A stretch of DNA of 42,807 nt from positions 1 to 42,807 of the forward strand of contig CABZJA010000009.1 of the NCBI GenBank assembly GCA_902525935.1, in the 5' to 3' direction. Under the pieces are notes generated by a model. The model saw only the letters and a program-made list of their open reading frames with translations. It did no database searches and was not told where the DNA came from. The stretch is from an uncultured Pelagibacteraceae bacterium (lineage in GTDB: Bacteria > Pseudomonadota > Alphaproteobacteria > Pelagibacterales > Pelagibacteraceae). Within the stretch, counting starts at the first letter, position 1; every line of letters begins with the position of its first letter. Positions 475 to 15,072 of this stretch are shown here, one piece after another. The position numbers were made by a program, and so were the translations under genes.

Positions 475-1449
475 TTATTTTTTTTTAGCTATATTGGAAT
501 ATAGCCAAGGGCAATCAACTAATAAAGGAGCTTGTTTACCTTCTGCAGCAGTTTGCATTCTTTTATCTCTAAATTTTTTTCTTTCCTCTTCTGGTAAATA
601 TAACCTTTCATGTCCCCAAAAGCTTGGGCCTTCAAAAGTTTCAATAGCTTCCCAAGATTTAGGATCTATTATTCTTCCACCCCATCCATTTTCTACAAAA
701 AATCCTGATGGTGTTATTGAATAAAATGAGGTCATGTAATCATTAGTATGCCTTCCCATTGTATAAGCAATTTTGTCGTCTTTTAAATTCATTAAGTCAT
801 ATCCCTGTCCAACATCATCTAAAGAATTGTATTCAACCATAAAATGGTGAAATCCTTTTTGACCTGATCCAAATAATGCAAAACTATGATGTCTACCATT
901 AACGTGAAAGAAACATAATGATATTGGTGTATTGCTATAATCGCTGATTTTAAAATCCAAAAGGTCTTTATAGAAAGGAACAAGTTTATTAAAATCTTTA
1001 GCATGTAAAACAACATGGCCCATTCCTAATGCACCAGTTTTAAATCCTGAAATTGGTCTAGATGGATTGAAAGGATCACTATCTTTCATTGGATCAAATA
1101 TTAATTCTATCTGATTGCCCTGAGGGTCTTTAAAATAAATTAAATCTTTAACAAATCTTTTATCTGCAAATGAGGATTGTCCATAAGTTACTTGGATATT
1201 ATTATTCTCGAGACGATCAGCATACATTTTTAAATCTTCTTTTTTCTCAACTTCCCAGCCCATAAAGGCCAGACTATCTCCAGTGTCTCCCGTCACAACT
1301 AATCTTTGCTTTTGATCATCCATTCTAAATGAAAGAGAGTCTTTTGCTCTATCTACCTGCTGCATTCCCAAACATTTTTGTGAATAATCTGACCAGTCTT
1401 CAATTCGATCTGAATTAACGCCGATGTAACTTAATGCATTTATTGCCAT
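475..1449 (-). CDS. Type I extradiol ring-cleavage dioxygenase (VOC fold)
   Basis: 324 residues, the usual length of two-domain type I extradiol dioxygenases such as BphC. The C-terminal domain holds the expected metal triad: H145 (GMGHVVL), H202 (GFHHFMVEY) and E253 (FFVENGW). Active-site neighbours are also in place: H188 in RHHS, and the GRHTNDYMTSFY stretch with H234 and Y243. I expect an Fe(II)-dependent cytoplasmic enzyme that opens a catechol ring next to the diol with O2. The N-terminal domain has the degenerate VOC repeat seen in this family (FKDPQGNQIELIF near 106-118). It sits between the TRAP binding-protein gene and an MhpA-like monooxygenase, which supports aromatic catabolism. 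The substrate (dihydroxyphenylpropionate-like, biphenyl-like or other catechol) is undetermined. Confidence 0.85.
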   Translation of the reverse strand: MAINALSYIGVNSDRIEDWSDYSQKCLGMQQVDRAKDSLSFRMDDQKQRLVVTGDTGDSLAFMGWEVEKKEDLKMYADRLENNNIQVTYGQSSFADKRFVKDLIYFKDPQGNQIELIFDPMKDSDPFNPSRPISGFKTGALGMGHVVLHAKDFNKLVPFYKDLLDFKISDYSNTPISLCFFHVNGRHHSFALFGSGQKGFHHFMVEYNSLDDVGQGYDLMNLKDDKIAYTMGRHTNDYMTSFYSITPSGFFVENGWGGRIIDPKSWEAIETFEGPSFWGHERLYLPEEERKKFRDKRMQTAAEGKQAPLLVDCPWLYSNIAKKK

Positions 1450-1472
1450 TCAATTATTATACAGGATTTAAA

Positions 1473-1502
1473 TTGAGCCTGCATTATTTAATACAGGCTC
1501 AA
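1473..1502 (-). terminator. Stem-loop between TRAP binding-protein and dioxygenase genes
   Basis: A perfect 9-base inverted repeat (TTGAGCCTG / CAGGCTCAA) surrounds a 12-base A+T loop, starting 14 bases after the dctP stop. On the minus strand it is followed by a mixed TTTAAAT run rather than a long U tract. I read it as a partial terminator or 3'-end stabiliser inside the operon. That would let the abundant binding protein be made in excess over the downstream enzymes. A full terminator is possible. Confidence 0.55.
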
Positions 1503-1516
1503 AAATTAGGTTTAAA

Positions 1517-2530
1517 TTAACCGTCTATTTTAGATATAATTTGTCTTGCTCTTTTTAAAACTGCGTCACCATCAAGGCCTTTGCCTTTCATTTCAGCAAG
1601 CCAGTTTGCTTCGATAGGTGCTAATATTTTCTTATATTCAGCTATAACATCATCAGAAGCTACTATGATCTCATGTCCAGGTTTATTATCTACCTCAACT
1701 CTCATTTTAGCATTTTGACTATCTATTAATCCAGATGCCCAGTCACCAAACCACTGACCACTAAATTTATCTACACATCCTTTGCCTTTAGCTGATAATC
1801 CATCGTATTTACCTTGGTTCATTATCAAACCAAATGTTGCATTAGTTATGTTAACTTCAGTGTGATATTTAGTTACATCAAATAGTCTGAAAGATCCGAT
1901 TGCAGTGTAAGGGAATGGAGTTCCATCAATTACACCTTTGTTAAGTGCTTCCGATGTTCCAGGAGCTGGCACTCTTACACCAGTTGCTCCAAGAGTTTTT
2001 AAAATTGTTCCAGCAATTTTACTTGGGACTCTCATTTTCTTACCTTTAAAGTCAGCAGGTCTTACAACTTTATCTGACTTCATATGTATTTGATATCCAG
2101 GATTAGAATGTAAACCAATTAGTTTAATTCCTGCCATCTCTTTATCTAAGTAACCTTCTTCATAAAGAGTATTTAAAGCTCTAGATCCTGCTTTTGAAGT
2201 TTTTGTTAAAAAAGGTAATTCAATTACAGAGCTCAATGGAAACTGTCCTCCGATATATCCAAGTACCGTCCATGAAATGTCTGCTACACCTTTTGTAACA
2301 ATATCATATTGTTGTGGTGGTTTTCCTAATACACCTCCTGCAAACATTTTAACATTAACTGCTCCAGCTGAACATTCGTTTACTTTGTCAGCCCATGCAG
2401 CAAGAATTTTGCTTGCGATAAATGCTTTTGGTGGTTCAAATGTTGCAAGTTTAAGTTCAGTTGCTGAAGCAGCATTTACTATACCTAAACTTAAAACACC
2501 AAAAACAAATCCAATTATTTTGTTTTTCAT
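1517..2530 (-). CDS. dctP: TRAP transporter periplasmic solute-binding protein (DctP family)
   Basis: 337 residues with a clear signal peptide (MKNKIIGFVFGVLSLG... then a likely cut after NAASA). The mature protein begins TELKLATFEPP, the usual first beta strand of DctP/TAXI-type TRAP receptors. Further family features are the GVADISWTVLGYIGG region and the MRVPSKIAGTILKTLGATGVRVPAPGTSEALNKGVIDGTP region, where R168 of MRVP is the position that usually salt-bridges the ligand carboxylate. It should therefore bind an organic acid in the periplasm. Its membrane partners dctQ and dctM are 1 kb away on the opposite strand, beyond the FAH-family gene. Ligand unknown; the neighbouring aromatic enzymes make an aromatic or ring-derived acid a reasonable guess. 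Confidence 0.88.
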   Translation of the reverse strand: MKNKIIGFVFGVLSLGIVNAASATELKLATFEPPKAFIASKILAAWADKVNECSAGAVNVKMFAGGVLGKPPQQYDIVTKGVADISWTVLGYIGGQFPLSSVIELPFLTKTSKAGSRALNTLYEEGYLDKEMAGIKLIGLHSNPGYQIHMKSDKVVRPADFKGKKMRVPSKIAGTILKTLGATGVRVPAPGTSEALNKGVIDGTPFPYTAIGSFRLFDVTKYHTEVNITNATFGLIMNQGKYDGLSAKGKGCVDKFSGQWFGDWASGLIDSQNAKMRVEVDNKPGHEIIVASDDVIAEYKKILAPIEANWLAEMKGKGLDGDAVLKRARQIISKIDG

Positions 2531-2566
2531 ATTTCTCCCTCTAAAATTTATATTAAAATTTTAACT

Positions 2567-3424
2567 CTAATTTGAGATTATTTCATCCTTAATAGTGTTA
2601 GATAAAACACCAATATCAGTGATTTCGACTTCAACATTGTCTCCTGGTTTCATAAAAACAGGTGGATTTCTTTTAAAGCCTACTCCACCAGGAGTTCCTG
2701 TTACCAAAACATCTCCTGCTCTCCATGCCATAGCTTTGGATACATAAGAAATTAAAATTGGTATATCGAAAATTAATTGACTTAGTTTTGCATTTTGCAT
2801 TACTTCACCATTTAGCCTAGTCTCTATTGTTAAACTTTTATAGTCATGAATATCTTCTGCTAAAACCATGTGAGGACCAAAACTTCCTGTTTTTTCAAAA
2901 TTTTTTCCCATACCAAATTGTCTTGTATGTTTTTGCCACTCTCTAATAGTACTTTCGTTGTAACAAGAAAAACCAACGATGTGCTTTAGCGCATCCTCTG
3001 GTTTGATGTGTTTACCACCCTCATCCATTACAACTGCCATTTCTCCTTCAAAGTCTAAACTTTCTGATACACTTGGTCTTTGTATTGATTGCATATGAGC
3101 TGTTTGGCTTTCTGGAAATCTGTGAAATATAACTGGGTTTTCCTCAACAGTACGATTAGTTTCTTTCACATGTTCACTGTAATTCAAACCTACACATATA
3201 ATTTTACCTGGATTAGGAATTAAAGGCGAATATTTAATTTGATCAAGTTTTATAGATCCTGGATTATTCTTTGCATATTCTTTTGCTTCTTTAATCTTTT
3301 TTATCTTTATTAATTCTTTTAAACTTGAAGCTCCATCTATCTTTCCAGTTAGATCGGTTATTAAATTATTTTCAATAATTCCAAACTTTTCACTGTTATC
3401 ATGATTGAATGAGATAAATTTCAT
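2567..3424 (-). CDS. Fumarylacetoacetate hydrolase family protein
   Basis: 285 residues, typical for bacterial FAH-domain hydrolases and decarboxylases. The core starts at NPGKIICVGLNYSEHVKE and has the metal-binding LDFEGEMAVV (E-x-E). It then has GFSCYNESTIREWQKHTRQFGMGKNF and ends with AGDVLVTGTPGGVG. These enzymes use Mg2+ or Mn2+ to hydrolyse or decarboxylate acylpyruvate-like ring-cleavage products in the cytoplasm. The third ligand position, usually Asp in a NDVS/NDGS context, reads Glu here (YNES). The gene starts 53 bases from divergent dctQ and leads the minus-strand group FAH-dctP-dioxygenase-monooxygenase. A role after ring cleavage is inferred from context; the true substrate is unknown. 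Confidence 0.82.
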   Translation of the reverse strand: MKFISFNHDNSEKFGIIENNLITDLTGKIDGASSLKELIKIKKIKEAKEYAKNNPGSIKLDQIKYSPLIPNPGKIICVGLNYSEHVKETNRTVEENPVIFHRFPESQTAHMQSIQRPSVSESLDFEGEMAVVMDEGGKHIKPEDALKHIVGFSCYNESTIREWQKHTRQFGMGKNFEKTGSFGPHMVLAEDIHDYKSLTIETRLNGEVMQNAKLSQLIFDIPILISYVSKAMAWRAGDVLVTGTPGGVGFKRNPPVFMKPGDNVEVEITDIGVLSNTIKDEIISN

Positions 3425-3451
3425 ATTTTTATAACTTTATACGTTAATCTC

Positions 3452-3476
3452 TGATAAATTAGAAGAAAGTTTATCA
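3452..3476. promoter_or_regulatory. Inverted repeat in the FAH/dctQ divergent promoter region
   Basis: TGATAAA and TTTATCA form a perfect 7-base inverted repeat separated by 11 bases. It ends one base before the dctQ start codon, in the 53-base gap between divergent transcripts. The length and position fit a dimeric repressor operator covering both promoters, but no regulator gene is nearby and chance is not negligible in A+T-rich DNA. Confidence 0.35.
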
Positions 3477-3477
3477 A

Positions 3478-3954
3478 ATGAAATTTAAAATTAATTACAT
3501 ATTTGATCTTTCAGCAATTATATCAGGATTAATATTATTATCTTTAGCTATACTAACTTTTTGTGATGTCTTTGGTAGAAGATTTCTAAATTCTCCCGTT
3601 ACAGGAACAATTGAATTAGTTGAATTCGGAATGGCATTGGTTGCTTTCTTAGCAATGCCGAGAGCTTTCTTTTTAAATGCGAATGTCTCCGCTGATTTCA
3701 TAAAAAATATCTCAAACAATGCCTTTCAAATTTTCATAAATATTTTTAGATTTATTTTAATGATAGTCATTATGTCTATGATGGCATATGCAACGACAAA
3801 AGAGGCTATGGCTTTTTTTAAAAATGAGAGAGTAACCATTGATTTAGAAATATATTTTTATCCTTTTTATTATGCAGCTTCTGTTGGCATGTGGTTGAGT
3901 GTTGTTGCTATAGTTTTTTGGTTAATAAGTGCTTTAAGGAGTGAAAACTCATGA
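3478..3954 (+). CDS. dctQ: TRAP transporter small permease subunit (DctQ)
   Basis: 158 residues with four hydrophobic segments (about 9-29, 45-65, 82-104 and 125-150), the standard DctQ topology. The loop after the first helix carries CDVFGRRFLNSPVTGTIELVEF, a strong DctQ signature. It pairs with DctM in the inner membrane to form the Na+-dependent TRAP permease fed by the binding protein at 1517-2530. Its stop overlaps the dctM start by 4 bases, so the two are translationally coupled. The leader is very short and the start codon abuts the inverted repeat at 3452-3476. Confidence 0.9.
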   Translation: MKFKINYIFDLSAIISGLILLSLAILTFCDVFGRRFLNSPVTGTIELVEFGMALVAFLAMPRAFFLNANVSADFIKNISNNAFQIFINIFRFILMIVIMSMMAYATTKEAMAFFKNERVTIDLEIYFYPFYYAASVGMWLSVVAIVFWLISALRSENS

Positions 3955-5261
3955 GCTTTGATCCTATTATAAGCGGTTCGTTATCTTTTTTAATCGTATT
4001 AATTCTTATGGCATTAAATGTGCCAATAGGTATTTCAATGTTAGTAGTTGGTTTTACTGGTTTTGCTTTAATTACAGGTTTTGAACAAGCCCTTTTCGTT
4101 TTAGGAACTGCTCCGTTTGAAGCTGTCTCTAAATACACTTTATCTGTATTACCTCTTTTCGTTTTGATGGGAAATCTTGCAAATAGAGCAAACTTATCCC
4201 GAAATTTATATGATGCAGCTTATGCAATTGTTGGACACTATAAAGGTGGATTAGCAATGTCTACTGTAGGTGCTTGTGCTGGATTTGGAATGATTTGTGG
4301 ATCTTCAATTGCAACAGCAGCTACGATGTCACAAATGGCTGGACCAGAAATGAAAAGACACGGATATAGCGATGCATTGATAAGTGGTTCCGTTGCATCA
4401 GGTGGAACATTAGGAATTATAATTCCACCGAGTGTAATATTAATAATTTATGCCTATTTAACTGAGCAATCGATACAGCAACTATTTTTTGCAGCCTTGA
4501 TACCAGGATTGATTGCTGTAGTTTTATATATGATTGCTATTAGAGTTTATTTACTAATTTACCCAGATCAAGGGGGACATGGAGAGAAAATGACTGCAAA
4601 AGACAGAATATCTGCTCTAACAAAAGTTTTTCCAATATTTTTAATCTTCGCGATAATTATGGGTGGACTTTATCTTGGTTTCTTTACAGCAACTGAAAGT
4701 GCAGCAGTTGGAGTTATTTTAGTAATCATATTTATTTTTTTTAGGGGTGAGCTCACAATTGAACTGCTTAGAAATTCTATATGGGATACTGTAAAAACTG
4801 TCGGTGCTCTTTATCTAATTGTTATTGGTGCAAGTGTTTTTAATTTTTTAATAACAGTTACTCAGTTACCTTTCACAGTTGTAGATTTTATTAATGATCT
4901 TCAACTAACTCCATTGGGAATTATTTTGGTAATATGTGCAATTTATTTAGTTCTGGGAACTGTAATGGACTCACTTGCAATGTTATTTTTAACTATTCCT
5001 GTTTTTTATCCTGTTATTGCTGATGCTGGCATTGACCCAGTTTGGTTTGGAATATTTGCTGTAATTGTTGTAGAATTTGGATTGATATCACCCCCTGTTG
5101 GTATGAATTTGTTTGTAATTAAAGGAGTGATGAACAAAACACCTCTTCAAACAATTTGGTTTGGTACTTTACCGTTCTTAATTACTGATGTTATTAGACT
5201 TGCGTTATTAATAGCTTTTCCAGCTTTATGTTTGTACTTGCCAAGTTTAATGTATCCTTAG
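3951..5261 (+). CDS. dctM: TRAP transporter large permease subunit (DctM)
   Basis: 436 residues and about 12 membrane segments, the normal size for DctM. Family stretches are visible: VLPLFVLMGNLA near 62-73, CGSSIATAATMSQMAGPEMKRHGY, GGTLGIIIPPSVILIIYA, and late in the protein VVEFGLISPPVGMNLFVIKG. It is the Na+-coupled translocation subunit that works with DctQ. It overlaps dctQ by 4 bases. Its stop lies one base from the stop of the convergent sulfatase gene, leaving no room for a separate terminator. Confidence 0.92.
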   Translation: MSFDPIISGSLSFLIVLILMALNVPIGISMLVVGFTGFALITGFEQALFVLGTAPFEAVSKYTLSVLPLFVLMGNLANRANLSRNLYDAAYAIVGHYKGGLAMSTVGACAGFGMICGSSIATAATMSQMAGPEMKRHGYSDALISGSVASGGTLGIIIPPSVILIIYAYLTEQSIQQLFFAALIPGLIAVVLYMIAIRVYLLIYPDQGGHGEKMTAKDRISALTKVFPIFLIFAIIMGGLYLGFFTATESAAVGVILVIIFIFFRGELTIELLRNSIWDTVKTVGALYLIVIGASVFNFLITVTQLPFTVVDFINDLQLTPLGIILVICAIYLVLGTVMDSLAMLFLTIPVFYPVIADAGIDPVWFGIFAVIVVEFGLISPPVGMNLFVIKGVMNKTPLQTIWFGTLPFLITDVIRLALLIAFPALCLYLPSLMYP

Positions 5262-5262
5262 A

Positions 5263-6840
5263 TTACCAAACACCAATCATTATACCACCATCTTCAGAAT
5301 AATCTCTCTCTTTTAAAACAAATTCATCGTCAGCGGCAGTTCTATTTTTTCGATCTGTTAATCTTTCTAGCAAAATATCTTTCATTTGATTTAGTATGTT
5401 TTGATGATCTTTAGATTGACCAAGATCGTTAAATTCATCTTTATCTTTTTCTAAATCAAATAATTGAGGTGGAAAACCTTTATAATAAATATATTTCCAT
5501 TTATCGTTTCTAATCATATAGGCTCTTGCGTCTGAAGCGCCTATATCTAAAATTTTTCTAGCTTCATTAAACGAATAATCTATCTCACTAAATACACTCT
5601 CTCTCCATTTGCTAATTTTTTCATCTCTTAGAATTGGAATTAAAGAAGAACCTTCTAGTCTATGTTTGCTCGCTTTACTTTCTACAGCATCTAAAAATGT
5701 TGGAAGTAAATCAATTGCCTCTATAAATCTTTTTTCTTTTTTTCCTCTCGTTTTGTTTGCTTCTTTACTTGGATCGTAAATAATCATTGGCACTTTAACT
5801 ATTTGCTCATGAAATAATTCTTTTTCACCAAGCCAATGATCACCATGGTAATCTCCATGATCTGATGTAAAAACAATCATAGTATCTTGCATATTTCCAT
5901 TTTCTTCCAAAAATTTAAAAAGTCTCCCTAGATTGTCATCAATTTGTTTTATTAAACCCATATAACCAGCAAGAACTGTCTCTCTTACGTTTTCTTGTGA
6001 AAATGTTTTTGAAATACTATTCTCCATAAAAGCTTTATAGACAGGATGATTAATATTTTTTTCTGAGTCTGATCTTTGAACAGGATAAAATTGATTTTGC
6101 GAATACATATTATGATATGGTGCGGGAGCAATATAAGGCCAATGTGGTTTTATATACGATAGATGCAAAAACCATTGTTCTTTAGTTTCTTTTATAAAAT
6201 CAATTGCTCTATTAGTCATAAATGCAGTTTCTGAATGTTTTTCTGGTAACCTAGATGGTTTATTTGAATTTCTTAATCTCCAACCACTTAAAACTTCTCC
6301 TTTTTCTCCATCAACTGAATTTGCCCAACTATCCCATGGATTATTTCCATCATATCCTAATTTATTTAACCATTCATTATAGGATAATTTTTTTTCAGAT
6401 TTTTTCATAATGTTGTTTGGATGCAGACCATCATCTCTCTCATAAGGATCAAACCCAGGTTCCATTACGATGGAACCAATCTCTGTGGTTTTTGAAATTC
6501 CCAATCTATTCATGCTATTAATATCAGGTCTCATATGTGTTTTACCAACAACACAAGTTTTTATTCCCGACTGCCTCAAATAATCACCAATAGTTAATTC
6601 ACCAATTGGAAGTGGTACTTGGTTCCAGGTTGAGCCATGACTAAATACTGTTCTTCCTGTGTAGTAAGATGCTCTTGATGGACCACATACAGGTGCTTGA
6701 ACATAAGCCGACTCAAACATTATAGCTTTTTTTGCTAAGTTATCTAAGTGAGGAGTTTTTAAATGGGGATGGCCATAACATGAAAGATAATCCCATCTTA
6801 GTTGGTCGGCCATTATAAAAAGAATATTCTTAACTTTCAT
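5263..6840 (-). CDS. Cytoplasmic sulfatase / phosphonate monoester hydrolase-like enzyme
   Basis: 525 residues of the alkaline-phosphatase-superfamily sulfatase type. C52-G-P-S-R56 is the formylglycine motif, so activity would require conversion of C52. Other expected active-site residues are D12, K100, H102, H233 (KPHWP), D327-H328 (TSDHGDYHGDH) and K340. There is no signal peptide (MKVKNILFIMADQ), so the enzyme should be cytoplasmic, as in choline sulfatase and phosphonate monoester hydrolases, which it resembles in the middle (HLSYIKPHWPYIAPAPYHNMY). It follows xsc on the same strand after 46 bases, so the pair may be co-transcribed. No formylglycine-generating enzyme gene is in the window. 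The substrate could be a sulfate ester, a phosphonate or a phosphate ester; sulfonate genes nearby favour a sulfur compound. Confidence 0.8.
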   Translation of the reverse strand: MKVKNILFIMADQLRWDYLSCYGHPHLKTPHLDNLAKKAIMFESAYVQAPVCGPSRASYYTGRTVFSHGSTWNQVPLPIGELTIGDYLRQSGIKTCVVGKTHMRPDINSMNRLGISKTTEIGSIVMEPGFDPYERDDGLHPNNIMKKSEKKLSYNEWLNKLGYDGNNPWDSWANSVDGEKGEVLSGWRLRNSNKPSRLPEKHSETAFMTNRAIDFIKETKEQWFLHLSYIKPHWPYIAPAPYHNMYSQNQFYPVQRSDSEKNINHPVYKAFMENSISKTFSQENVRETVLAGYMGLIKQIDDNLGRLFKFLEENGNMQDTMIVFTSDHGDYHGDHWLGEKELFHEQIVKVPMIIYDPSKEANKTRGKKEKRFIEAIDLLPTFLDAVESKASKHRLEGSSLIPILRDEKISKWRESVFSEIDYSFNEARKILDIGASDARAYMIRNDKWKYIYYKGFPPQLFDLEKDKDEFNDLGQSKDHQNILNQMKDILLERLTDRKNRTAADDEFVLKERDYSEDGGIMIGVW

Positions 6841-6886
6841 TTATTTCCTGACAGTTAATTATTTTTATAATGAAATTCTACTAATC

Positions 6887-8671
6887 TCAACTAACAAGAG
6901 ACTTTTGAGGTTTCATATCACTCTTGCTTATACCAGCTACTTTAACTGGTTTTTTCATAGCATCTCTTCTGAATGGCTCACCTAATTCTTGATTTAGAAT
7001 TATTTCGATAAATGTAGTAATACCTTTTGTCTGATCTTCGCATGATTGTTTAATAGCTTTAGTGGTTTCTTCCATTGTATTTGCAATAACACCTTTTAAG
7101 CCACATGCATTAGCAACTTTTGCATAACTTAATTCTGGATCTAACTCTGTTCCAACAAAATTATCATCGAACCATAAAATTGAATTTCTTTTTTCAGCAC
7201 CCCATTGATAATTTCTAAAGATTACCATTGTTATTGCAGGCCACTCTTCTCTTGCACAAGAACTCATTTCATTCATGCTTATTCCAAATGCTCCATCACC
7301 TGCAAAACCTATAACGGGTGTATCTGGACATCCAATTTTTGCTCCAAGAATAGATGGAAATCCATAACCACATGGTCCAAATAAACCTGGTGCCAAATAT
7401 TTTCGTGGTTTTTCAAATGTAGGGTAAGCGTTACCAATTGCACAATTATTTCCAATATCACTTGAAATTATAACATCTTCTGGCATCCCAGCTTGAATAG
7501 CTCTCCATGCTTGTCTTGGAGACATTCTATCTTTATCTCTTTCTCTTGCTTCTTTATTCCATACAGTTCCTGGGTCATCATCCTCATGATCTAAACTTGT
7601 AAGAGTTTGCAACCATGCAGATTTTGTTTGATGAATTAGATTTTTTCTATCCTCTCTACCATTATCTCCAGCATTTGATGAAAGTTTTTCAAATATTTGT
7701 TGAGCTACCATTTTAGCGTCACCGCATATACCAACTGTAACTTTCTTTGTTAAACCAATACGATCGGGGTTCATATCAACTTGAATAATTGTTGCATCTT
7801 TTGGCCAATAATCAATTCCATATCCTGGTAAAGTTGAAAATGGATTTAATCTTGTTCCTAATGCCAATACTACATCAGCTTTTGAAATTAACTCCATTGC
7901 AGCTTTAGATCCATTGTAACCTAATGGACCAACAGCTAGCGGATGGCTACCTGGAAAGCTATCGTTATGTTGATATCCATTACATACAGGTGCATCAAGC
8001 TTTTCTGCTAATTTCTTACAATCATCAATCGCATCACCTATGACAACTCCTGCCCCAGATAAAATTATAGGGAATTTTGCTTCTGATAATAATTTCGCCG
8101 CTCTATCAACAGCGTCTTTTCCGCCACCTTGTCTTTCAAATCTTACAATTGGAGGTAATTCTATATCTATCACTTGTGTCCAAAAATCTCTTGGTACATT
8201 TATTTGCGCAGGCGCTGAACCTCTAAATGCTTTTTCTATTACTCTGTTTAAAACTTCTGCCATCCTTGATGGGTCTCTTACTTCTTCTTGATAACACACC
8301 ATGTCTTTAAATAAATTCATTTGCTCTACTTCTTGAAAACCACCTTGGCCCATAGTTTTGTTTGCAGCTTGTGGTGTAACTAGTAGTAGCGGAGTGTGAT
8401 TCCAGTAAGCAGTTTTTATTGGTGTAACAAGTCCTGTAATACCTGGACCATTTTGAGCAATCACCATTGACATTTTTCCAGTTGCTCTAGTGTAACCATC
8501 AGCAATCAATCCACCATTTGTTTCATGAGCAACGTCCCAAAAAGTTATTCCAGCTTCTGGGAAAAGATCAGAAATAGGCATGAATGCGGAACCAATAATA
8601 CCAAACGAATGTTCAATACCATGCATCTGTAAAACTTTTACAAAAGCTTCTTCGGTTGTCATTTTAGCCAT
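6887..8671 (-). CDS. xsc: Sulfoacetaldehyde acetyltransferase
   Basis: 594 residues, full length for Xsc. The N-terminus (MTTEEAFVKVLQMHGIEHSFGIIGSA) and the stretches ADGYTRATGKMSM, IAQNGPGIT, TMGQGGFQEVEQM and GYNGSKAAMELISKADVVLALGTRLNPFSTLPG match Xsc as I know it rather than acetolactate synthases. The ThDP-binding GDG...N motif is present (GFAGDGAFG through FRNYQWGAEKRN). The enzyme converts sulfoacetaldehyde plus phosphate to acetyl phosphate and sulfite in the cytoplasm. It feeds on taurine through Tpa at 38768-40111, and its sulfite can go to AprBA or TauE next door. It is divergent from suyA. A second ATG three codons in (MTTEE) is also a plausible start. Confidence 0.95.
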   Translation of the reverse strand: MAKMTTEEAFVKVLQMHGIEHSFGIIGSAFMPISDLFPEAGITFWDVAHETNGGLIADGYTRATGKMSMVIAQNGPGITGLVTPIKTAYWNHTPLLLVTPQAANKTMGQGGFQEVEQMNLFKDMVCYQEEVRDPSRMAEVLNRVIEKAFRGSAPAQINVPRDFWTQVIDIELPPIVRFERQGGGKDAVDRAAKLLSEAKFPIILSGAGVVIGDAIDDCKKLAEKLDAPVCNGYQHNDSFPGSHPLAVGPLGYNGSKAAMELISKADVVLALGTRLNPFSTLPGYGIDYWPKDATIIQVDMNPDRIGLTKKVTVGICGDAKMVAQQIFEKLSSNAGDNGREDRKNLIHQTKSAWLQTLTSLDHEDDDPGTVWNKEARERDKDRMSPRQAWRAIQAGMPEDVIISSDIGNNCAIGNAYPTFEKPRKYLAPGLFGPCGYGFPSILGAKIGCPDTPVIGFAGDGAFGISMNEMSSCAREEWPAITMVIFRNYQWGAEKRNSILWFDDNFVGTELDPELSYAKVANACGLKGVIANTMEETTKAIKQSCEDQTKGITTFIEIILNQELGEPFRRDAMKKPVKVAGISKSDMKPQKSLVS

Positions 8672-8700
8672 ATCAAGTACTTCTTAATTCTATTTTTTAA

Positions 8701-8728
8701 TTGTCAAAGAGATCAATTCATATATAAA
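8701..8728 (+). promoter_or_regulatory. Putative promoter of suyAB
   Basis: TTGTCA at 8701-8706 and TATAAA at 8723-8728 are separated by 16 bases, close to a housekeeping promoter. A transcript from here would begin near 8735. That leaves roughly 27 bases of leader before the ATG at 8762 and excludes a TTG start at 8729. This is motif reading only. Confidence 0.45.
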
Positions 8729-8761
8729 TTGGGTCGAATTTCAAACAAAGAAATCGTCACA

Positions 8762-9049
8762 ATGGCCGGCACAGATATTATAATCCACGATGAAAAAGAC
8801 AATGTAGGTGTTGTAGTTATTGAAAAAATTACACCTAAACAAGACTGTGATTGCTGGATTATGGAAAATGATAAATCAGTAAAAATTCAATCGATGGATG
8901 AAATACCTTTGGGTCATAAAATTGCTATGACTGATCTTAACGAGGGAGATACAATATTAAAGTACGGGCATGATATTGGCAAAGTAGTAAAATCTATTAA
9001 AAAGGGTGAACATGTACATGTTCACAACGTAAAAACTAAAAAGTGGTAA
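8762..9049 (+). CDS. suyA: (2R)-sulfolactate sulfo-lyase, small subunit
   Basis: 95 residues forming a SAF-type domain, the N-terminal unit of altronate dehydratase-like lyases, with [25 protein letters not shown] as the signature. With SuyB it cleaves 3-sulfolactate to pyruvate and sulfite. I place the start at the ATG at 8762: the reading frame can be extended to a TTG at 8729, but the added 11 residues lie in the promoter zone and do not look like the family. The suyB ATG follows one base after the suyA stop. Alternative reading: small subunit of another UxaA-family dehydratase. The adjacent xsc and apr genes make sulfolactate the best call. Confidence 0.8.
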
Positions 9050-9050
9050 A

Positions 9051-10217
9051 ATGGAAATTCCAAAAACTTTTTTAGGATATAAAAGAGAAGATGGAAGAAC
9101 AGGTACAAGAAATCACGTAATAATTCTACCTGTTGATGATATTTCAAATGCTTGTGCTGAAGCTGTAGCTAATAATATTAAAGGTACGATTGCACTCCCA
9201 CATTCTTATGGAAGATTACAATTTGGAGCAGACTTAGAGCTTCATTTCAGAACAATGATTGGAACAGGAAAAAATCCAAATGTTGCAGCAGTTATAGTAA
9301 TTGGTATTGAGCCTAAATGGACAAAAAGAATTGTTGATGCAATTGCAACGACTGGAAAACCAGTTGAAGGTTTTAGTATAGAAGGTGTAGGAGATATAGA
9401 CACTATCGCAAGAGTTTCAAAGAAAGCTCAAGAATTTTCAATTTGGGCTTCAGAGAAACAAAGAGAAGAACGTCCTATAAGTGATTTATGGATATCAGTT
9501 AAATGTGGTGAGTCAGATACAACATCTGGATTAGCATCAAATCCTACAGTTGGAAATTTAATGGATAAATTAGAGCCCCTTGGTATTCATTTATGTTTCG
9601 GTGAAACATCTGAGCTAACAGGTGCTGAAACTGTTTGTGAAAAAAGAGGAAAAACTCCTGAGGCTCAAGAAAAGTTTAGAAAAACATGGAGTTCTTACAA
9701 TGATTTCATCTTAAAAGAAGCAACAGATGATCTTTCTGAAAGTCAACCAACAGCTGGAAACATAGCTGGTGGACTTACAACAATTGAAGAAAAAGCATTT
9801 GGAAACTTTCAAAAAATTGGTGGATGTAAATTTATTGATGTACTAGAGCCAGCTGAAGAACCAACAAAAGGTCCTGGATTATACTTTATGGATACCTCAT
9901 CAGCTGCTGCTGAATGTGTTACTTTGCAAGCTGCAGGAGGATTTAATCTTCATCTATTTCCAACTGGACAAGGAAATATAATTGGAAACCCAATTGAACC
10001 AGTCGTAAAACTAACTGCTAATCCTTTAACTGCTAGAACTATGAGTGAACATATTGATGTTGATGTTTCTAAAATCTTATCAAGAGAAATAAATTTGGAT
10101 GAAGCTGGTGACGAATTAATTAAAGCTACGATAAGAGTTGCAAACGGTAGATTAACTTGTGCTGAAGCACTTGGTCATAGAGAATTTGTTATGACTAAAT
10201 TATACAGAAGTGCTTAA
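9051..10217 (+). CDS. suyB: (2R)-sulfolactate sulfo-lyase, large subunit
   Basis: 388 residues of the UxaA/altronate dehydratase C-terminal family, the usual SuyB size. It begins [31 protein letters not shown]. Family stretches are [22 protein letters not shown] and [52 protein letters not shown]. Cysteines in KCGESD and AAECVT are in the positions this family uses for Fe or Fe-S binding. Together with SuyA it eliminates sulfite from sulfolactate to give pyruvate. The genes are one base apart. The suyB stop overlaps the convergent tauE stop by 4 bases, putting the sulfite-releasing lyase beside a candidate sulfite exporter. Confidence 0.85.
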
Positions 10218-11299
10218 GCTTTAAGCTTAGCTTCCCTTGCTTTGTTCCACTTAGAAATATAATTTCTTAAAATTGCAGCTCCAATTCCAAGAACTACTGC
10301 TAATACAACTGATGTGAGCCCGTAAAAAACTGGAAGGTCTTTAGAATAATCTAAAATAAACTGTGCAATGTTACCGAGGTTTTTAGTTCCATTTACTACC
10401 GTTTCAACAACTACATCATCTTTAATAAAGGTGTCATAAGCAATTGCAATTCCTACTAATAATAAAAGTACTGCTAAGATTGTTTTAAATTCCGTGCTAT
10501 CAACTTTTTCACCAATTTTTTGACCAAACTGAACACCAATAATTGAGCCAAGTATAAGTACAAAAACTAAAACAAGATCAATTGTTCCGTAATTAAAAGC
10601 ATGAAGAACAGTTACAATTGCACTTACAAATATTGTAACAAACAAAGATGTACCAGGAATTAGTTTGGTTGGCATTCCAATAATATAAATCATTGCAGGA
10701 ACCAGTATAAATGCACCACCTACTCCCATAATTGCAGCGATATATCCTACAATTAAACCAATAATAATTGGAGTAAATGCACTTTCATAAACCTTTGATT
10801 TTTTAAAACGCATTCTAAAAGGAAGTCCATGTATCCAATAATGCGTATGTAATTTTTTTCTTACAACAATTTTTTTTCTAGCCTTATCAATTTCTGATAC
10901 TCCTTGAATAAGCATTAAAGTTCCAAGCATAGCTAAGATATACATGTAGCCTAAAGAGATAACGATGTTTATTTTTCCAATATCCTGAAAATAAGTAAAA
11001 GTTAAGATCCCTAGTAAGGTTCCAATAGTTCCTCCGACCACAATCATCAATCCCATTTTATAATCTAATGTACCTTTTAAGTAATGAGTAGTTGAACCAG
11101 ATACCGATGTACCTAAAATATTGCTTGCTTCATTTGGCACTGCATAAGCTGGTGGAATACCTAAAAAAATTAAAAATGGTGTCATTAAAAATCCTCCACC
11201 TACACCAAACAATCCTGAAAGAATACCAACTGCTAAACTTAAACCAAATATAAAGAGTATGTTAATTTCGACTTGAGCTATTGGAAGAAAATATTCCAT
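10214..11299 (-). CDS. tauE: TauE/SafE family membrane transporter, probable sulfite exporter
   Basis: 361 residues with eight or nine hydrophobic segments and the duplicated family motif: [27 protein letters not shown] near 29-55 and [33 protein letters not shown] in the second half. A basic cytoplasmic loop ([16 protein letters not shown]...) joins the halves, so it is longer than minimal 250-residue members. The family moves sulfur oxyanions and organosulfur anions across the inner membrane. Its position downstream of aprMBA and next to suyAB and xsc suggests removal of excess sulfite or sulfate. Direction and substrate are inferred from context. Confidence 0.8.
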
Positions 11300-11350
11300 A
11301 TAATCTAACTATTCCTCTCATAATCTAAAGTCAATGATTATAAGAATAAA

Positions 11351-11497
11351 TTAAATAAAATTTTGAAATGTTCCAAGGATTATAATTGCCCAAGTAAAAA
11401 ATATAAAAATATAAAGAAAAGATTTAATTATTTTTGAAAGCTGGTTTGAAACTAATAAAGAGATTTTTTTAATATTTTGATTAAAAACTTGATACAT
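11351..11497 (-). CDS. Small membrane protein (48 aa) between tauE and the apr operon
   Basis: An ATG-started frame of 48 codons begins MYQVFNQNIKKISLLV. It has a basic amphipathic N-terminus and then one hydrophobic segment (SFLYIFIFFTWAIIILGTF). It fills most of the 249-base gap between tauE and the 116-aa gene on the same strand. It could be a small subunit or accessory of the transporter, or a chance frame; A+T-rich DNA easily encodes hydrophobic peptides. I recognise no family. Confidence 0.38.
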   Translation of the reverse strand: MYQVFNQNIKKISLLVSNQLSKIIKSFLYIFIFFTWAIIILGTFQNFI

Positions 11498-11548
11498 AAC
11501 TGCGAAATATCACAAGTTTTATTAAATGCAAATAATATTTAGTTAAAT

Positions 11549-11899
11549 TTAAAAAATGGTTGCCCCAAAGACTTTGACCTCATCTCCCTCTTCGCCAAGG
11601 ACAAGTCGACCTAAAAAGTCTCCAGGTATCTCTGTACTGTTTTGTTTATATATAACAGTTACGTACAAGCCTCTTCTTAGACAACCTATGGCCTTACACC
11701 CTTCTTTAAGGCTTGAGATTAGCTTATTGCTTGCCCATTGCTTGCCAAGCTCTACTTCGTTGGCCCCGTAAAGCATTTGTGATGATAGATCCTTAGTAAA
11801 ACCACCATAATCTTTCATGTTGGAACATCTGACCATGTTATCCCAGATAGGATTAGCAATTTTAATGATTTCTTCGTCTGATTTGTCGACAATACTCAT
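11549..11899 (-). CDS. Uncharacterised 116-aa protein following aprA
   Basis: I do not recognise a named family. The protein is soluble in appearance, with no signal peptide or membrane segment. It has a helical first half (DEEIIKIANPIWDNMVRCSNMKDYGGFTKDLS) and a strand-rich second half ending EGDEVKVFGATIF. This order loosely resembles NTF2-like cone folds. Cysteines at about 25, 68 and 73 (C68-x4-C73) could be functional. It lies 9 bases after aprA on the same strand and is almost certainly in the apr operon. A role in sulfite oxidation, such as assembly, electron transfer or sulfur carriage, is inference from position alone. Confidence 0.75.
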   Translation of the reverse strand: MSIVDKSDEEIIKIANPIWDNMVRCSNMKDYGGFTKDLSSQMLYGANEVELGKQWASNKLISSLKEGCKAIGCLRRGLYVTVIYKQNSTEIPGDFLGRLVLGEEGDEVKVFGATIF

Positions 11900-11908
11900 C
11901 TAAAATGG

Positions 11909-13768
11909 TTAGGAAGCTTGCTTCTTCTCTTTATCATCAACGATATGATAAACAGGCTTTTTCTCCATTTCAAATTTTCCAGTTTCAGGATCTCTTCTAG
12001 AAACAGTTAAACAGTGCCAGTTTTCATCATCAAGTTTCATATGATCGCCTCTATAATAATAGCCTGGCCAACGTGTTTCTTCTCTAAATAACGTATGATG
12101 AGCAACACATTCTGAAGTTACAGCTCTATGCTTAAGTTCCCATGCTCTCATCAACTGGTGATAATCTTCAGCTCCAACATGATCTAAGTCTTCTTGTAGT
12201 AATTGTAGCTGTTCTAAGCCTTTTTTAAGTAGATTATCATTTGTCATATAATTATTTGTTAATCCACCACAATATTCATCCATAATTTTTTGTAGTCTTT
12301 GTAATCCTTGTATAGGTAATATATAACTTGGAGAAACAGTTCCTCCGGTAATCTCATTTCTGCCCACTGTATAATTCTCAATTGGCTTGAATATTTCTTC
12401 TTTAAGCTTATCTAATTGTGCATCAGAAACTTCTATATCATCAGCTTTTTTATCTTGAATATATTTAACAGCAGCTTTAGACGCTAACCTTCCTTCTGTG
12501 AATGAGCCAGATGAAAATTTGTGAGCACTTCCGCCAACTGCATCTCCTGCTCCAAATAATCCATCTATAGTCATCATTCTATTGTATCCCCAAAAATATT
12601 CATCAGGTGCTATATCTTCTGGTCCACTAACCCATGCTCCTGAACATGTAGCATGAGATCCCATTACATATGGTTCTGAAGTTGTTAATTCAGGGTTTGT
12701 ATATTTTGGATCAATATTTTGAGATGCCCAAACTACTGCTTGACCAACTGTCATACCTAAGAAATTTTCCCATCCAACAGTTTCTAAGTGTGGGTCTTGG
12801 AATGCTTCTTTTGTAACCATATGGATTGGTCCACCACCTGCAGCTGTTTCTTGAATAAATGCGTGATTTCTTAAACAAGTTGGCGTTGGATGATGGTCTA
12901 TATACTCTCCTACTAATTCTTTAGTAGCATCGTACCATTTCTTCTCATAGTTTTCGCCATTAGCATTTTGAGTATAAGTTTTTAAATGTAAGAAATATGC
13001 TCCAACTGGACCATAACCATCTTTAAATCTACATAGTACAATTCTATTTTCCATTTGAGTCATTTTTGCACCTGCTTGAATAGGTAATGCATAAGCAGAT
13101 CCATTACTCCAAGGTGCATACCATGTTCTACCCATACCCTCACCAACTGCTCTTGGTTTAAATATGTGCGAAGCTCCTCCAGCAGAAACAACTACGGTTC
13201 TTGATTTGAATACGTGAAAATTTCCAGTTCTAACATTAAAGCCAACTGCGCCAGCTATTCGGTTTGGATTTTTTTCATCTTTTAAAAGATGAGTAATCAT
13301 TATTCTGTTATAAATTTTATCAGCAGATTTTTTTGCAGCTTCAGCTACAATTGGTTTGTAACTTTCACCGTGTATCATAATTTGCCACTTACCTTCTCTT
13401 TGATATCTTCCAGTCTCTTTATTTTTCATCATTGGAAGACCCCACTCATCAAACATGTGAACAGTTGAGTCTACATGACGTGCCATGTCATAACCTAAAT
13501 CTTCTCTAACAAGACCCATCAAATCATTTCTAGCATACCGTACGTGATCCTCTGGCATATTCTCGCCCCACTGCATTCCCATATAACAGTTAATAGCGTA
13601 AAGACCTTGTGCAACGGCGCCACTTCTATCTATATTTGCTTTTTCTACACAAATTATTTTTAAATCTCTTCCCCAGTGTCTTGCTTCAAAGGTAGCGCCT
13701 GTTCCAGCCATACCTCCACCGACAACTAGTACATCACATTGTTCTATGATAGTTTTATGCTTAGCCAT
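11909..13768 (-). CDS. aprA: Adenylylsulfate reductase alpha subunit
   Basis: 619 residues, the usual AprA length. It has an N-terminal FAD site (DVLVVGGGMAGTGATFEARHWG) and the AprA-specific run EKANIDRSGAVAQGLYAINCY. Further diagnostic stretches are GGGPIHMVTKEA, TCSGAWVSGPEDIAPDEYFWGYNRMMTIDGLFGAGDAVGGSAHKFSSGSFTEGR and FREETRWPGYYYRGDHMKLDDENWHC. The heterodimer with AprB interconverts APS and sulfite plus AMP. With an AprM partner and no dissimilatory sulfite reductase genes in view, oxidation of sulfite released by Xsc and SuyAB is the likely direction. Its start overlaps the aprB stop by one base. Confidence 0.96.
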   Translation of the reverse strand: MAKHKTIIEQCDVLVVGGGMAGTGATFEARHWGRDLKIICVEKANIDRSGAVAQGLYAINCYMGMQWGENMPEDHVRYARNDLMGLVREDLGYDMARHVDSTVHMFDEWGLPMMKNKETGRYQREGKWQIMIHGESYKPIVAEAAKKSADKIYNRIMITHLLKDEKNPNRIAGAVGFNVRTGNFHVFKSRTVVVSAGGASHIFKPRAVGEGMGRTWYAPWSNGSAYALPIQAGAKMTQMENRIVLCRFKDGYGPVGAYFLHLKTYTQNANGENYEKKWYDATKELVGEYIDHHPTPTCLRNHAFIQETAAGGGPIHMVTKEAFQDPHLETVGWENFLGMTVGQAVVWASQNIDPKYTNPELTTSEPYVMGSHATCSGAWVSGPEDIAPDEYFWGYNRMMTIDGLFGAGDAVGGSAHKFSSGSFTEGRLASKAAVKYIQDKKADDIEVSDAQLDKLKEEIFKPIENYTVGRNEITGGTVSPSYILPIQGLQRLQKIMDEYCGGLTNNYMTNDNLLKKGLEQLQLLQEDLDHVGAEDYHQLMRAWELKHRAVTSECVAHHTLFREETRWPGYYYRGDHMKLDDENWHCLTVSRRDPETGKFEMEKKPVYHIVDDKEKKQAS

Positions 13769-14238
13769 TAATAATAAACGCCTTGCTTAAATGAATTCTT
13801 ATCTAAGGTTGGTAAATCTTTTTCAGTATTTAAACCATGTGGCTCATTATATAAAATTTGTGAATTAATCTCTCCTTGATTAGGAGTATCAGCTTCAGCT
13901 AATTTTGGTATAAATTTTCCCCAAGGTTTTGTTGTTATTGGTGATACAAAATTTTTCTCTGTACCATTTCTAAATTTAATTCTCCAAGAAATAGTTCCTT
14001 TTTCTTCTTCTCTTCTAACTCTAACACTATGACCCATCGGAGCAAAGTCAGCATATCCTCTTACGTCAATTGCATGATTAGGACATGCCTTAACGCATGA
14101 ATAACATTCCCAACAAAAATTTGGTTCTATATTTTTTGCTCTTCTAATAGTTTCGTCTATGTGCATGATATCTGATGGACATATATCTACGCAATGACCA
14201 CAACCATCACATCTCGTCATGTATACAAATGTTGACAT
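13768..14238 (-). CDS. aprB: Adenylylsulfate reductase beta subunit (two 4Fe-4S clusters)
   Basis: 156 residues. Two ferredoxin cluster motifs are visible: C10-x2-C13-x2-C16-x3-C20 and C42-x2-C45-x2-C48-x3-C52. The rest forms the AprB tail (YADFAPMGHSVRVRREEEKGTISWRIKFRNG) that wraps the alpha subunit. The protein passes electrons from the AprA FAD toward the membrane partner. It overlaps aprA by one base and follows aprM by 39 bases. Confidence 0.96.
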   Translation of the reverse strand: MSTFVYMTRCDGCGHCVDICPSDIMHIDETIRRAKNIEPNFCWECYSCVKACPNHAIDVRGYADFAPMGHSVRVRREEEKGTISWRIKFRNGTEKNFVSPITTKPWGKFIPKLAEADTPNQGEINSQILYNEPHGLNTEKDLPTLDKNSFKQGVYY

Positions 14239-14277
14239 ATCTACTTATTACCTTTCTTTAAAATTTTATCAATCATA

Positions 14278-15072
14278 TTAATAGTGCTTTGGTGCCTCAC
14301 GTTTAATTCCAAGCCCAAATTTTTCTGGAGCATCTGCAGGTGGAGGTAAATTATCTCTAGAGCCGTCTGCTTCTGCTAAATTTTTTTGGATTGCAGCACC
14401 TGGTTTATAGAACATATGAGCAAATTTAGACCAGTAAACTCCTCCAAATAAAACTATGTTAGCTATCGCAAACAAAATTAAAAATAAAATACTTAAACCA
14501 GTAGATCCTGAATATTGGAAATACGACCATGCTAAACCAAAGGTAGAAGATAATACTAAAGCTAAAACAAATAAATCTGCTTTTATGATTCTAAAAACTG
14601 AGTGAGCTTCAGCAGATACATCTACTCTTAAAAAAAACCAAAACCAATATGCTCCAAGGCAAGTTAAAATTGCACCAGCGTGCCAAATGATTGGCCATAT
14701 AGATGGAGTTACAGCACTAGGAGAAGAATATCCAAATATCATAACACCTGAACCGATCCAAAATAATATTGTTCCATACATTCCTAATACATGTGCAAAT
14801 CTTCTTTTACCCAAACCTAATTCAGATGTAGTTCCAATATCATGTACTACTGTTTTTGATATAATCGCTGTTTTCTCTCCAAGGCTTAATTCTCTACTTG
14901 CTGCTTTTTTTGCTTTTTTTGCGTTATTAAAAAAATATTTTACATTTTTCTTATGAATAATATCCATCAGTGTTCCAGTCACTACTAATGCTAACATTAG
15001 CAAAACAAATGCTTGCATAGCAATTGAAGGGACTGTTGAAGAAAGGACAGCAAATGGGTTTGTTGTGAACAT
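14278..15072 (-). CDS. aprM: AprM, membrane anchor / quinone-linked partner of APS reductase
   Basis: 264 residues with about six hydrophobic segments (near 17-37, 90-112, 122-147, 158-180, 190-212 and a weaker one), and a charged cytoplasmic stretch around 40-80. Placement directly before aprB-aprA matches the aprMBA arrangement described for sulfite-oxidising bacteria and SAR11, where AprM replaces the QmoABC complex as the likely electron outlet. Histidines near helix ends (KTVVHDIG, FAHVLGMYG, WHAGAIL) could bind haem or sit near quinone, but this is inference. The call rests mainly on synteny and topology. Confidence 0.82.
   Translation of the reverse strand: MFTTNPFAVLSSTVPSIAMQAFVLLMLALVVTGTLMDIIHKKNVKYFFNNAKKAKKAASRELSLGEKTAIISKTVVHDIGTTSELGLGKRRFAHVLGMYGTILFWIGSGVMIFGYSSPSAVTPSIWPIIWHAGAILTCLGAYWFWFFLRVDVSAEAHSVFRIIKADLFVLALVLSSTFGLAWSYFQYSGSTGLSILFLILFAIANIVLFGGVYWSKFAHMFYKPGAAIQKNLAEADGSRDNLPPPADAPEKFGLGIKREAPKHY

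Follow-up and report, generated by a model that had tools for sequence, protein, structure and literature searches.

Our analysis revealed that the sulfonate block of the SAR11 genome studied here is real and conserved, and that a HIT-family protein encoded beside it is a candidate for the fate of APS in the family of the studied genome (f1), where ATP sulfurylase (Sat) is missing; in a second family of the same order (f2) no HIT of this type was found. The explanation as a whole is that of a cytoplasmic module for sulfonate dissimilation in SAR11, in which the HIT protein would cleave APS in place of Sat, and we hold it to be somewhat more doubtful than even. Gene content, synteny and the absence of the Sat family (PF01747) were observed, and every reaction is what we infer.

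Genomes and samples

The window, i.e. the whole stretch of 42,807 nucleotides that was analysed, is contig C9 of a genome of 1.06 Mb in 41 contigs that is 77% complete. The relatives sample consisted of this genome and 60 relatives (61 genomes, 48 of them apr-positive). The order sample held 157 genomes, searched at E <= 1e-50 for aprA and at E <= 1e-15 for a HIT of the window type; aprA was found in 119 of them (85 of f1 and 34 of f2). The 19 apr-negative f1 genomes are those listed by name, and 18 unlisted apr-negative genomes fall in the "same order" part of this sample. In the class sample, 15 of 289 genomes had aprA over the cut-off. The named loci were the best 80 of 525 relatives by a scan with orf116, all of them Pelagibacteraceae. 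Named loci may overlap with the other genome samples. Counts of HIT and apr are not independent because the genomes are related and the genes linked. The labels g1 and g229 denote genera of f1.

Gene organization of the window

xsc, suyAB, tauE and aprMBA were placed within 10 kb by the original prediction, and both the ORFs and the family matches bore this out (Table 1). It was silent on the sulfatase at the edge, on orf116 and on the HIT gene, which lies just beyond the stretch that it covered. Both Apr subunits scored over their cut-offs and their genes are adjacent with one base in common, while orf116 starts 9 bp after aprA; this overlap and this short gap indicate that aprM-aprB-aprA-orf116 form one unit. 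The name aprM was given from the position of the gene and from the 46-78% identity of its product to the ORF preceding aprB in other loci; homologues also precede aprB in other alphaproteobacteria. Beyond aprM lie the HIT gene and a pab-like operon. The suyA ORF (8729-9049) opens at TTG, and an in-frame ATG at 8762, giving 95 aa, is the likely start; SuyA was 94-95 aa long in most relatives. Promoter and terminator scans returned sites no more numerous than in shuffles, and the Rfam search gave no match.

Table 1. Features of the window, with examples of the gene pair found in f2 loci
Feature	Position	Strand	Basis
Sulfatase, formylglycine-type (presumed)	5263..6840	-	PF00884 183.6 bits; below all NCBIfam cut-offs
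xsc, sulfoacetaldehyde acetyltransferase	6887..8671	-	TIGR03457 971.9 bits, over the curated equivalog cut-off of 676.4
suyA, (R)-sulfolactate sulfo-lyase small subunit (probable)	8762..9049	+	Galactarate-dehydratase N-terminal match 38.7 bits
suyB, (R)-sulfolactate sulfo-lyase large subunit (probable)	9051..10217	+	GD_AH domains; SuyB identity
tauE, predicted TauE/SafE-type exporter	10214..11299	-	PF01925 147.8 bits
orf116, 116 aa, end of the apr unit, NTF2-like fold predicted	11549..11899	-	
aprA, APS reductase alpha	11909..13768	-	TIGR02061 1000 bits (cut-off 641.75)
aprB, APS reductase beta	13768..14238	-	TIGR02060 191.6 bits (cut-off 135.65)
aprM, predicted membrane anchor / electron link to quinones	14278..15072	-	Position before aprB; weak QmoC match 19.4 bits
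HIT-family nucleotide hydrolase/transferase, 132 aa	15179..15577	-	PF01230 68.7 bits (cut-off 21.5); DcpS_C 43.5 bits
f2 kinase-like/nucleotidyltransferase-like pair, examples	L033:3611-4496; L046:14447-15326; 13 further f2 loci		

The sulfatase carries a CxPSR motif, which we take to mark the formylglycine type. It is an accessory gene outside the conserved block: it was found in 1 of 38 f1 loci and in only 6 of the 80 named loci, indicating that this flank of xsc is variable. In the window, the flank (475-6840) holds TRAP transporter genes, an FAA hydrolase and glyoxalase/dioxygenase genes in addition to the sulfatase.

Conservation of the block

The synteny of xsc-suyAB-apr across SAR11 genomes, a check that the original prediction had proposed, was clear. 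Of the named Pelagibacteraceae loci that extended far enough, 63 of 65 had tauE, suyA, suyB and xsc downstream of apr, so that the grouping is not due to chance. aprA stood directly upstream of orf116 in all 80 named loci, and HIT was present in 49 of the 56 that were long enough upstream. xsc and suyA were divergent, with start matches 57-121 bp apart (34 f1 loci). Conserved synteny, this divergent spacing and the identity of SuyB uphold the predicted integration from sulfonate through sulfite to APS; the first interpretation as a whole was partly supported, with its exception given below.

Across 40 loci of relatives, xsc-suyAB-tauE were joined to apr in f1 only. The xsc gene of f2 was located about 13-20 kb from apr (11 genomes with both on one contig), and in the four annotated f2 xsc loci, one of them (L264) from an apr-negative genome, it stood near a class-III aminotransferase with no suyAB nearby. 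One of these aminotransferases was tested and matched the AptA model with 563 bits. A YeiH-type carrier gene occurred in 12 of 38 f1 loci. On the far side of xsc, 10 of 38 f1 loci had an FAD-dependent oxidoreductase of the DAO family (L164:16135-17439, L057:7605-8909), a possible feeder of sulfoacetaldehyde.

Identity of SuyAB

When SuyB was compared with plasmid records, 13 records among the best 25 of 316 matches showed 59.7-69.6% identity and the next showed 40.5% and lower. The upper group came from Paracoccus, Sinorhizobium, Methylobacterium, Cupriavidus pinatubonensis, Rhodococcus and others. The Cupriavidus relative adjoins hpsN and hpsO, the Paracoccus relative adjoins a putative sulfate exporter (26% identical to the YeiH-type protein of f1 loci), and a Variovorax protein of about 40% identity has a different gene context. 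Judged by these identities and by the neighbours of the two close records and the distant one, the SuyAB of the window are nearer to proteins of sulfolactate/DHPS loci than to the rest of the UxaA family. SuyB identity and gene contexts support their assignment as (R)-sulfolactate sulfo-lyase. The Cupriavidus pinatubonensis and Paracoccus loci have the same two-gene pair, with SuyB at about 64-69% identity; unlike the window, they carry transporters together with hpsN/hpsO or a sulfate exporter, and no apr in the stretches examined.

ATP sulfurylase and phosphotransacetylase

No sat and no pta were visible to the original prediction, which is true of the window and of its 77%-complete genome (0 matches for Sat in a PF01747 search). 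It had placed both genes elsewhere. This was right of pta in relatives, as Pta (PF01515) was found in 59 of the 61 genomes of the relatives sample, with none in the incomplete genome of the window itself. It failed for sat, as far as the PF01747 type is concerned: this family had no match in the 48 apr-positive genomes of the relatives sample. The set for complete indirect sulfite oxidation, aprMBA plus sat, was thus lacking its PF01747 member. Outside the order, Sat was found in all 13 apr-positive genomes of the class sample. Since the usual ATP-yielding step is missing without Sat, energy gain is supported to two electrons and not beyond.

A single genome of the relatives sample (G050) had Sat of this family, located directly after an ORF that by eye is APS-kinase-like (L071:662-2100). 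A service of this Sat to Apr was rejected because the genome has no aprA over the cut-off; perhaps it is used for sulfation. Most Pta-positive genomes have an ORF of malic-enzyme length (about 760 aa), and in many a separate ORF of some 300 aa is present. This stand-alone gene is flanked in G012 by a gene resembling L-sulfolactate dehydrogenase (245.7 bits against a cut-off of 500) on one side and by a HisD-family gene on the other; the set in G004 is similar, except that two oppositely oriented ORFs separate its first two genes. HpsN has been likened to histidinol dehydrogenase, which places it in the HisD family, in the part of the study consulted (PMC11131964), and the HisD-family model cannot tell the two apart.

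Distribution and placement of the HIT gene

The HIT protein of the window exceeded the PF01230 cut-off and has the HxHxH motif, with HCHIHL conserved in the complete rows of the alignment. A HIT of this type was found in 79 of the 157 order-sample genomes, all 79 being f1 and apr-positive; that is, 79 of 85 apr-positive f1 genomes had it against 0 of 19 apr-negative ones. In 72 of the 79 carriers the gene shares the strand of aprA and is found no more than 3 kb upstream of it; in G416 it lies 4.5 kb upstream. In five carriers of genus g229 it is 1.5 kb downstream of aprA on the other strand; in the one locus annotated among them (L247) it stands between tauE and suyB, and the other four share the distance. 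Two carriers (G396 and G442) hold pieces. In a distant alphaproteobacterium (G298), the order was sat, aprB, aprA, a CxxCxxCC protein, HIT and xsc, with a Pta-family ORF opposite.

Several observations count against a role of HIT in the block. Six apr-positive f1 genomes had no such gene; two of them (G434 and G365) stop short of its expected position, and the apr loci of the other four (G359, G427, G391 and G456) are intact. It was also missing from G020 and G025 of the relatives sample and from 7 of 56 named loci, and G445 has an apr locus without it, its only match being a copy that is fused to HNH, interrupted and located on a different contig. In f2, the window-type HIT was not found in 34 apr-positive order-sample genomes, and an adjacent HIT was absent from 15 of 15 loci. 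HIT co-occurs with Sat in G298, and similar HITs were found away from apr, both plasmid-borne and as fusions with HNH nucleases. The start of the HIT gene overlaps the end of the pabC-like gene by 4 bp, and it may therefore belong to the pab operon. Finally, a HinT-like HIT was present in all 36 SAR11 genomes checked, which for partial genomes of the G011 type refers to the assembled part only. This second protein is distinct from the window-type HIT of the same genomes (27-34% identical).

In the HIT tree, the g229 proteins formed one group (99/94) and the g1 proteins, with one HNH-fused copy, a separate one (98/98), while the deeper forks stayed open and the bootstrap had yet to converge. 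Tree and placements suggest that HIT may have been recruited repeatedly beside apr, xsc and suy genes. The fused proteins, of about 330 aa, have HIT behind the HNH nuclease domain (L250:11455-12450; L251:4452-5444). Such a fusion occupies the usual place before aprM in G454 and, by ORF length, also in G018, and lies elsewhere in G356. In g229, pab-like genes were absent near apr, where a TENA/PQQC-family protein of 221 aa was encoded (L245:5141-5806, with a same-looking ORF in L246 and L247); as a guess, it is perhaps another route to p-aminobenzoate. In the open-access literature searched, we found no description of HIT directly upstream of aprM, nor, among the titles and abstract openings listed, of HIT linked with sulfonates.

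The orf116 protein

orf116 followed aprA in all 40 loci of relatives. It had no Pfam or NCBIfam match. Its structure model (pLDDT 89.5) had NTF2-like structural matches and was placed in the NTF2-like fold, at the level of fold only; the top match was a designed protein (8vez), and natural ones included 2rgq (Z 10.3, 3.2 A over 111 residues) and 4hyz (Z 9.8, 2.5 A over 101). No NTF2-fold protein after aprA was described in the open-access literature searched. Four of the 289 class-sample genomes had orf116, and each of them belongs to the 15 whose aprA exceeded the cut-off. Outside SAR11 it followed aprM-aprB-aprA in G347 and a contig-cut aprA in G254. As both of these carriers also have Sat, orf116 as a plain replacement of Sat was rejected: orf116 is tied to Apr and not to Sat loss. 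It would act as an accessory of AprBA, and help in assembly or stability is our guess. In several other alphaproteobacteria, a calcineurin-like phosphoesterase was encoded beside aprMBA (L170:3353-4114, L171:652-1464, and by eye L162, L172 and L174).

Proposed pathway

Xsc would free sulfite from sulfoacetaldehyde and SuyAB from (R)-sulfolactate, a step that we propose with very high confidence. AprBA with the membrane protein AprM would then join sulfite and AMP to APS and pass two electrons to the quinone pool; that AprMBA works in this oxidising direction is strongly to be expected. TauE, plus the YeiH-type carrier in some relatives, would export excess anion. As no Sat was found, AprBA would stall when APS builds up, and a neighbouring APS-cleaving enzyme would solve the stall. 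HIT was proposed for this step since Sat is absent and some HIT enzymes split APS. In the accessible parts of the literature, Fhit was reported to release AMP from APS (PMC7072326), a title among the cited references credits Hint4 and DcpS with hydrolysing and phosphorolysing it, and APAT was described as moving AMP from APS to phosphate (PMC8232776). HIT would split APS to AMP and sulfate, or with phosphate to ADP and sulfate; AMP would be returned to AprBA and the oxidation pulled forward. Position, distribution and precedent put the role of HIT as the APS-cleaving enzyme just short of an even chance. The fuller statement is more tentative, and we offer it with reserve: sulfite may be oxidised to sulfate free of Sat, with a repeatedly recruited HIT hydrolase/phosphorylase replacing Sat and keeping AMP cycling, and with orf116 as a dedicated partner of AprBA.

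Alternative explanations

The same module could also work with HIT as a bystander: it may serve the pab operon as a hydrolase of the Ap4A/Ap3A type, or be a mobile gene. The ubiquitous HinT, slow hydrolysis or leakage would then dispose of APS, and the main use of Apr, next to TauE export, would be as a valve that detoxifies sulfite. The intact apr loci that have no HIT, its absence from f2, the mobile contexts of similar HITs and the overlap with the pabC-like gene all agree with this, and detoxification is the published view in the portions available (PMC12636525; PMC5864207). However, a bystander fits poorly with the lack of window-type HIT in every one of the 19 apr-negative f1 genomes and with its place between apr and xsc in G298. 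Moreover, the pab genes are gone from between aprM and the CysMet gene in the three annotated g229 loci, in one of which HIT stands elsewhere in the block. We regard a bystander HIT as rather unlikely.

APS made by Apr might instead be mainly used: kinase and nucleotidyltransferase partners would phosphorylate it to PAPS or hand it on to a different adenylyl acceptor. Beside orf116, all 15 f2 loci have convergent genes for an APS-kinase-like (about 165 aa) and a nucleotidyltransferase-like (about 131 aa) protein, each matching its own half of a single phage family model (phrog_10255), and the nucleotidyltransferase-like gene also lies upstream of aprM, at about 1.4 kb from aprA, in all seven apr-positive g229 genomes. 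Such a use of APS is nevertheless improbable. The block of the window has no such pair and its incomplete genome gave no nucleotidyltransferase match, while the kinase match was weak (29.1 bits against a Pfam cut-off of 21.1) and far below NCBIfam cut-offs. The nucleotidyltransferase-like gene was also present in at least 8 of 19 apr-negative f1 genomes, for which reason the 131-aa protein was rejected as a "mini-Sat"; its best NCBIfam matches were weak ones to NMN adenylyltransferases and its structure model was poor (pLDDT 65.9). A further reading concerns the source of sulfite: the SuyAB-like proteins might use altronate- or galactarate-like acids and release none, and altronate-like substrates were what the original prediction itself had named as fatal to it. 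The profile libraries used have no SuyAB model, the best curated match was galactarate dehydratase, far below its cut-off, and public records label such proteins as UxaA family. Against this stand the gap in SuyB identity between about 60-70% and about 40%, the contexts of the close relatives (hpsN/hpsO or the putative sulfate exporter), not shared by a 40% one, and the divergent pairing of suyA with xsc in 34 loci, and we consider it very improbable.

Comparison with known systems and significance

The content of the block, its role and the missing Sat in most SAR11 are already in print. From the portions of these papers at hand, aprAB is core in Pelagibacteraceae and suyAB and xsc are core or near-core sulfite producers (PMC12636525). 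Tpa, Xsc and AprAB have been cited for SAR11, most of which are without ATP sulfurylase, and evidence that cultured SAR11 excretes sulfate when given taurine was said to be lacking (PMC10356861). Apr of deep SAR11 was proposed for sulfite detoxification (PMC5864207), and a scheme from DHPS through sulfolactate to SuyAB includes SAR11, whose HpsO, HpsP and HpsN were tested (PMC11131964). The published accounts thus share with the window the same enzymes and the oxidation by AprAB of sulfite from organosulfur; unlike ours, in their consulted portions they propose no gene order, HIT, orf116 or APS enzyme (PMC12636525; PMC10356861; PMC5864207).

The aprMBA and sat genes of Allochromatium vinosum resemble the window in the aprM-aprB-aprA unit, in the reaction from sulfite to APS and in electrons passing to the membrane, as far as the sections available describe them (PMC8232776). 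The window differs from this system, to the same extent, in having no Sat, with HIT and orf116 nearby instead. Fhit (PMC7072326), Hint4 and DcpS share the HIT domain with the window protein, which also matches the DcpS C-terminal model; these are eukaryotic proteins, and the activity of the SAR11 HIT on APS is putative. APAT, or "ADP sulfurylase", resembles the proposed HIT in yielding sulfate from APS without pyrophosphate, according to the available part of one paper and the title of a Thiobacillus denitrificans reference (PMC8232776). In contrast to APAT, which is presumably related to GalT, the HIT protein of the window consists of one short HIT domain (132 aa).

No heterotroph of the surface ocean is more abundant than SAR11, according to the part of the study seen (PMC12636525). 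Among the sulfur and carbon compounds of the sea, taurine, DHPS and sulfolactate hold an important place. The missing APS step now has a named candidate protein, and if this candidate is right, it would show whether SAR11 gains ATP, ADP or electrons only from sulfite.
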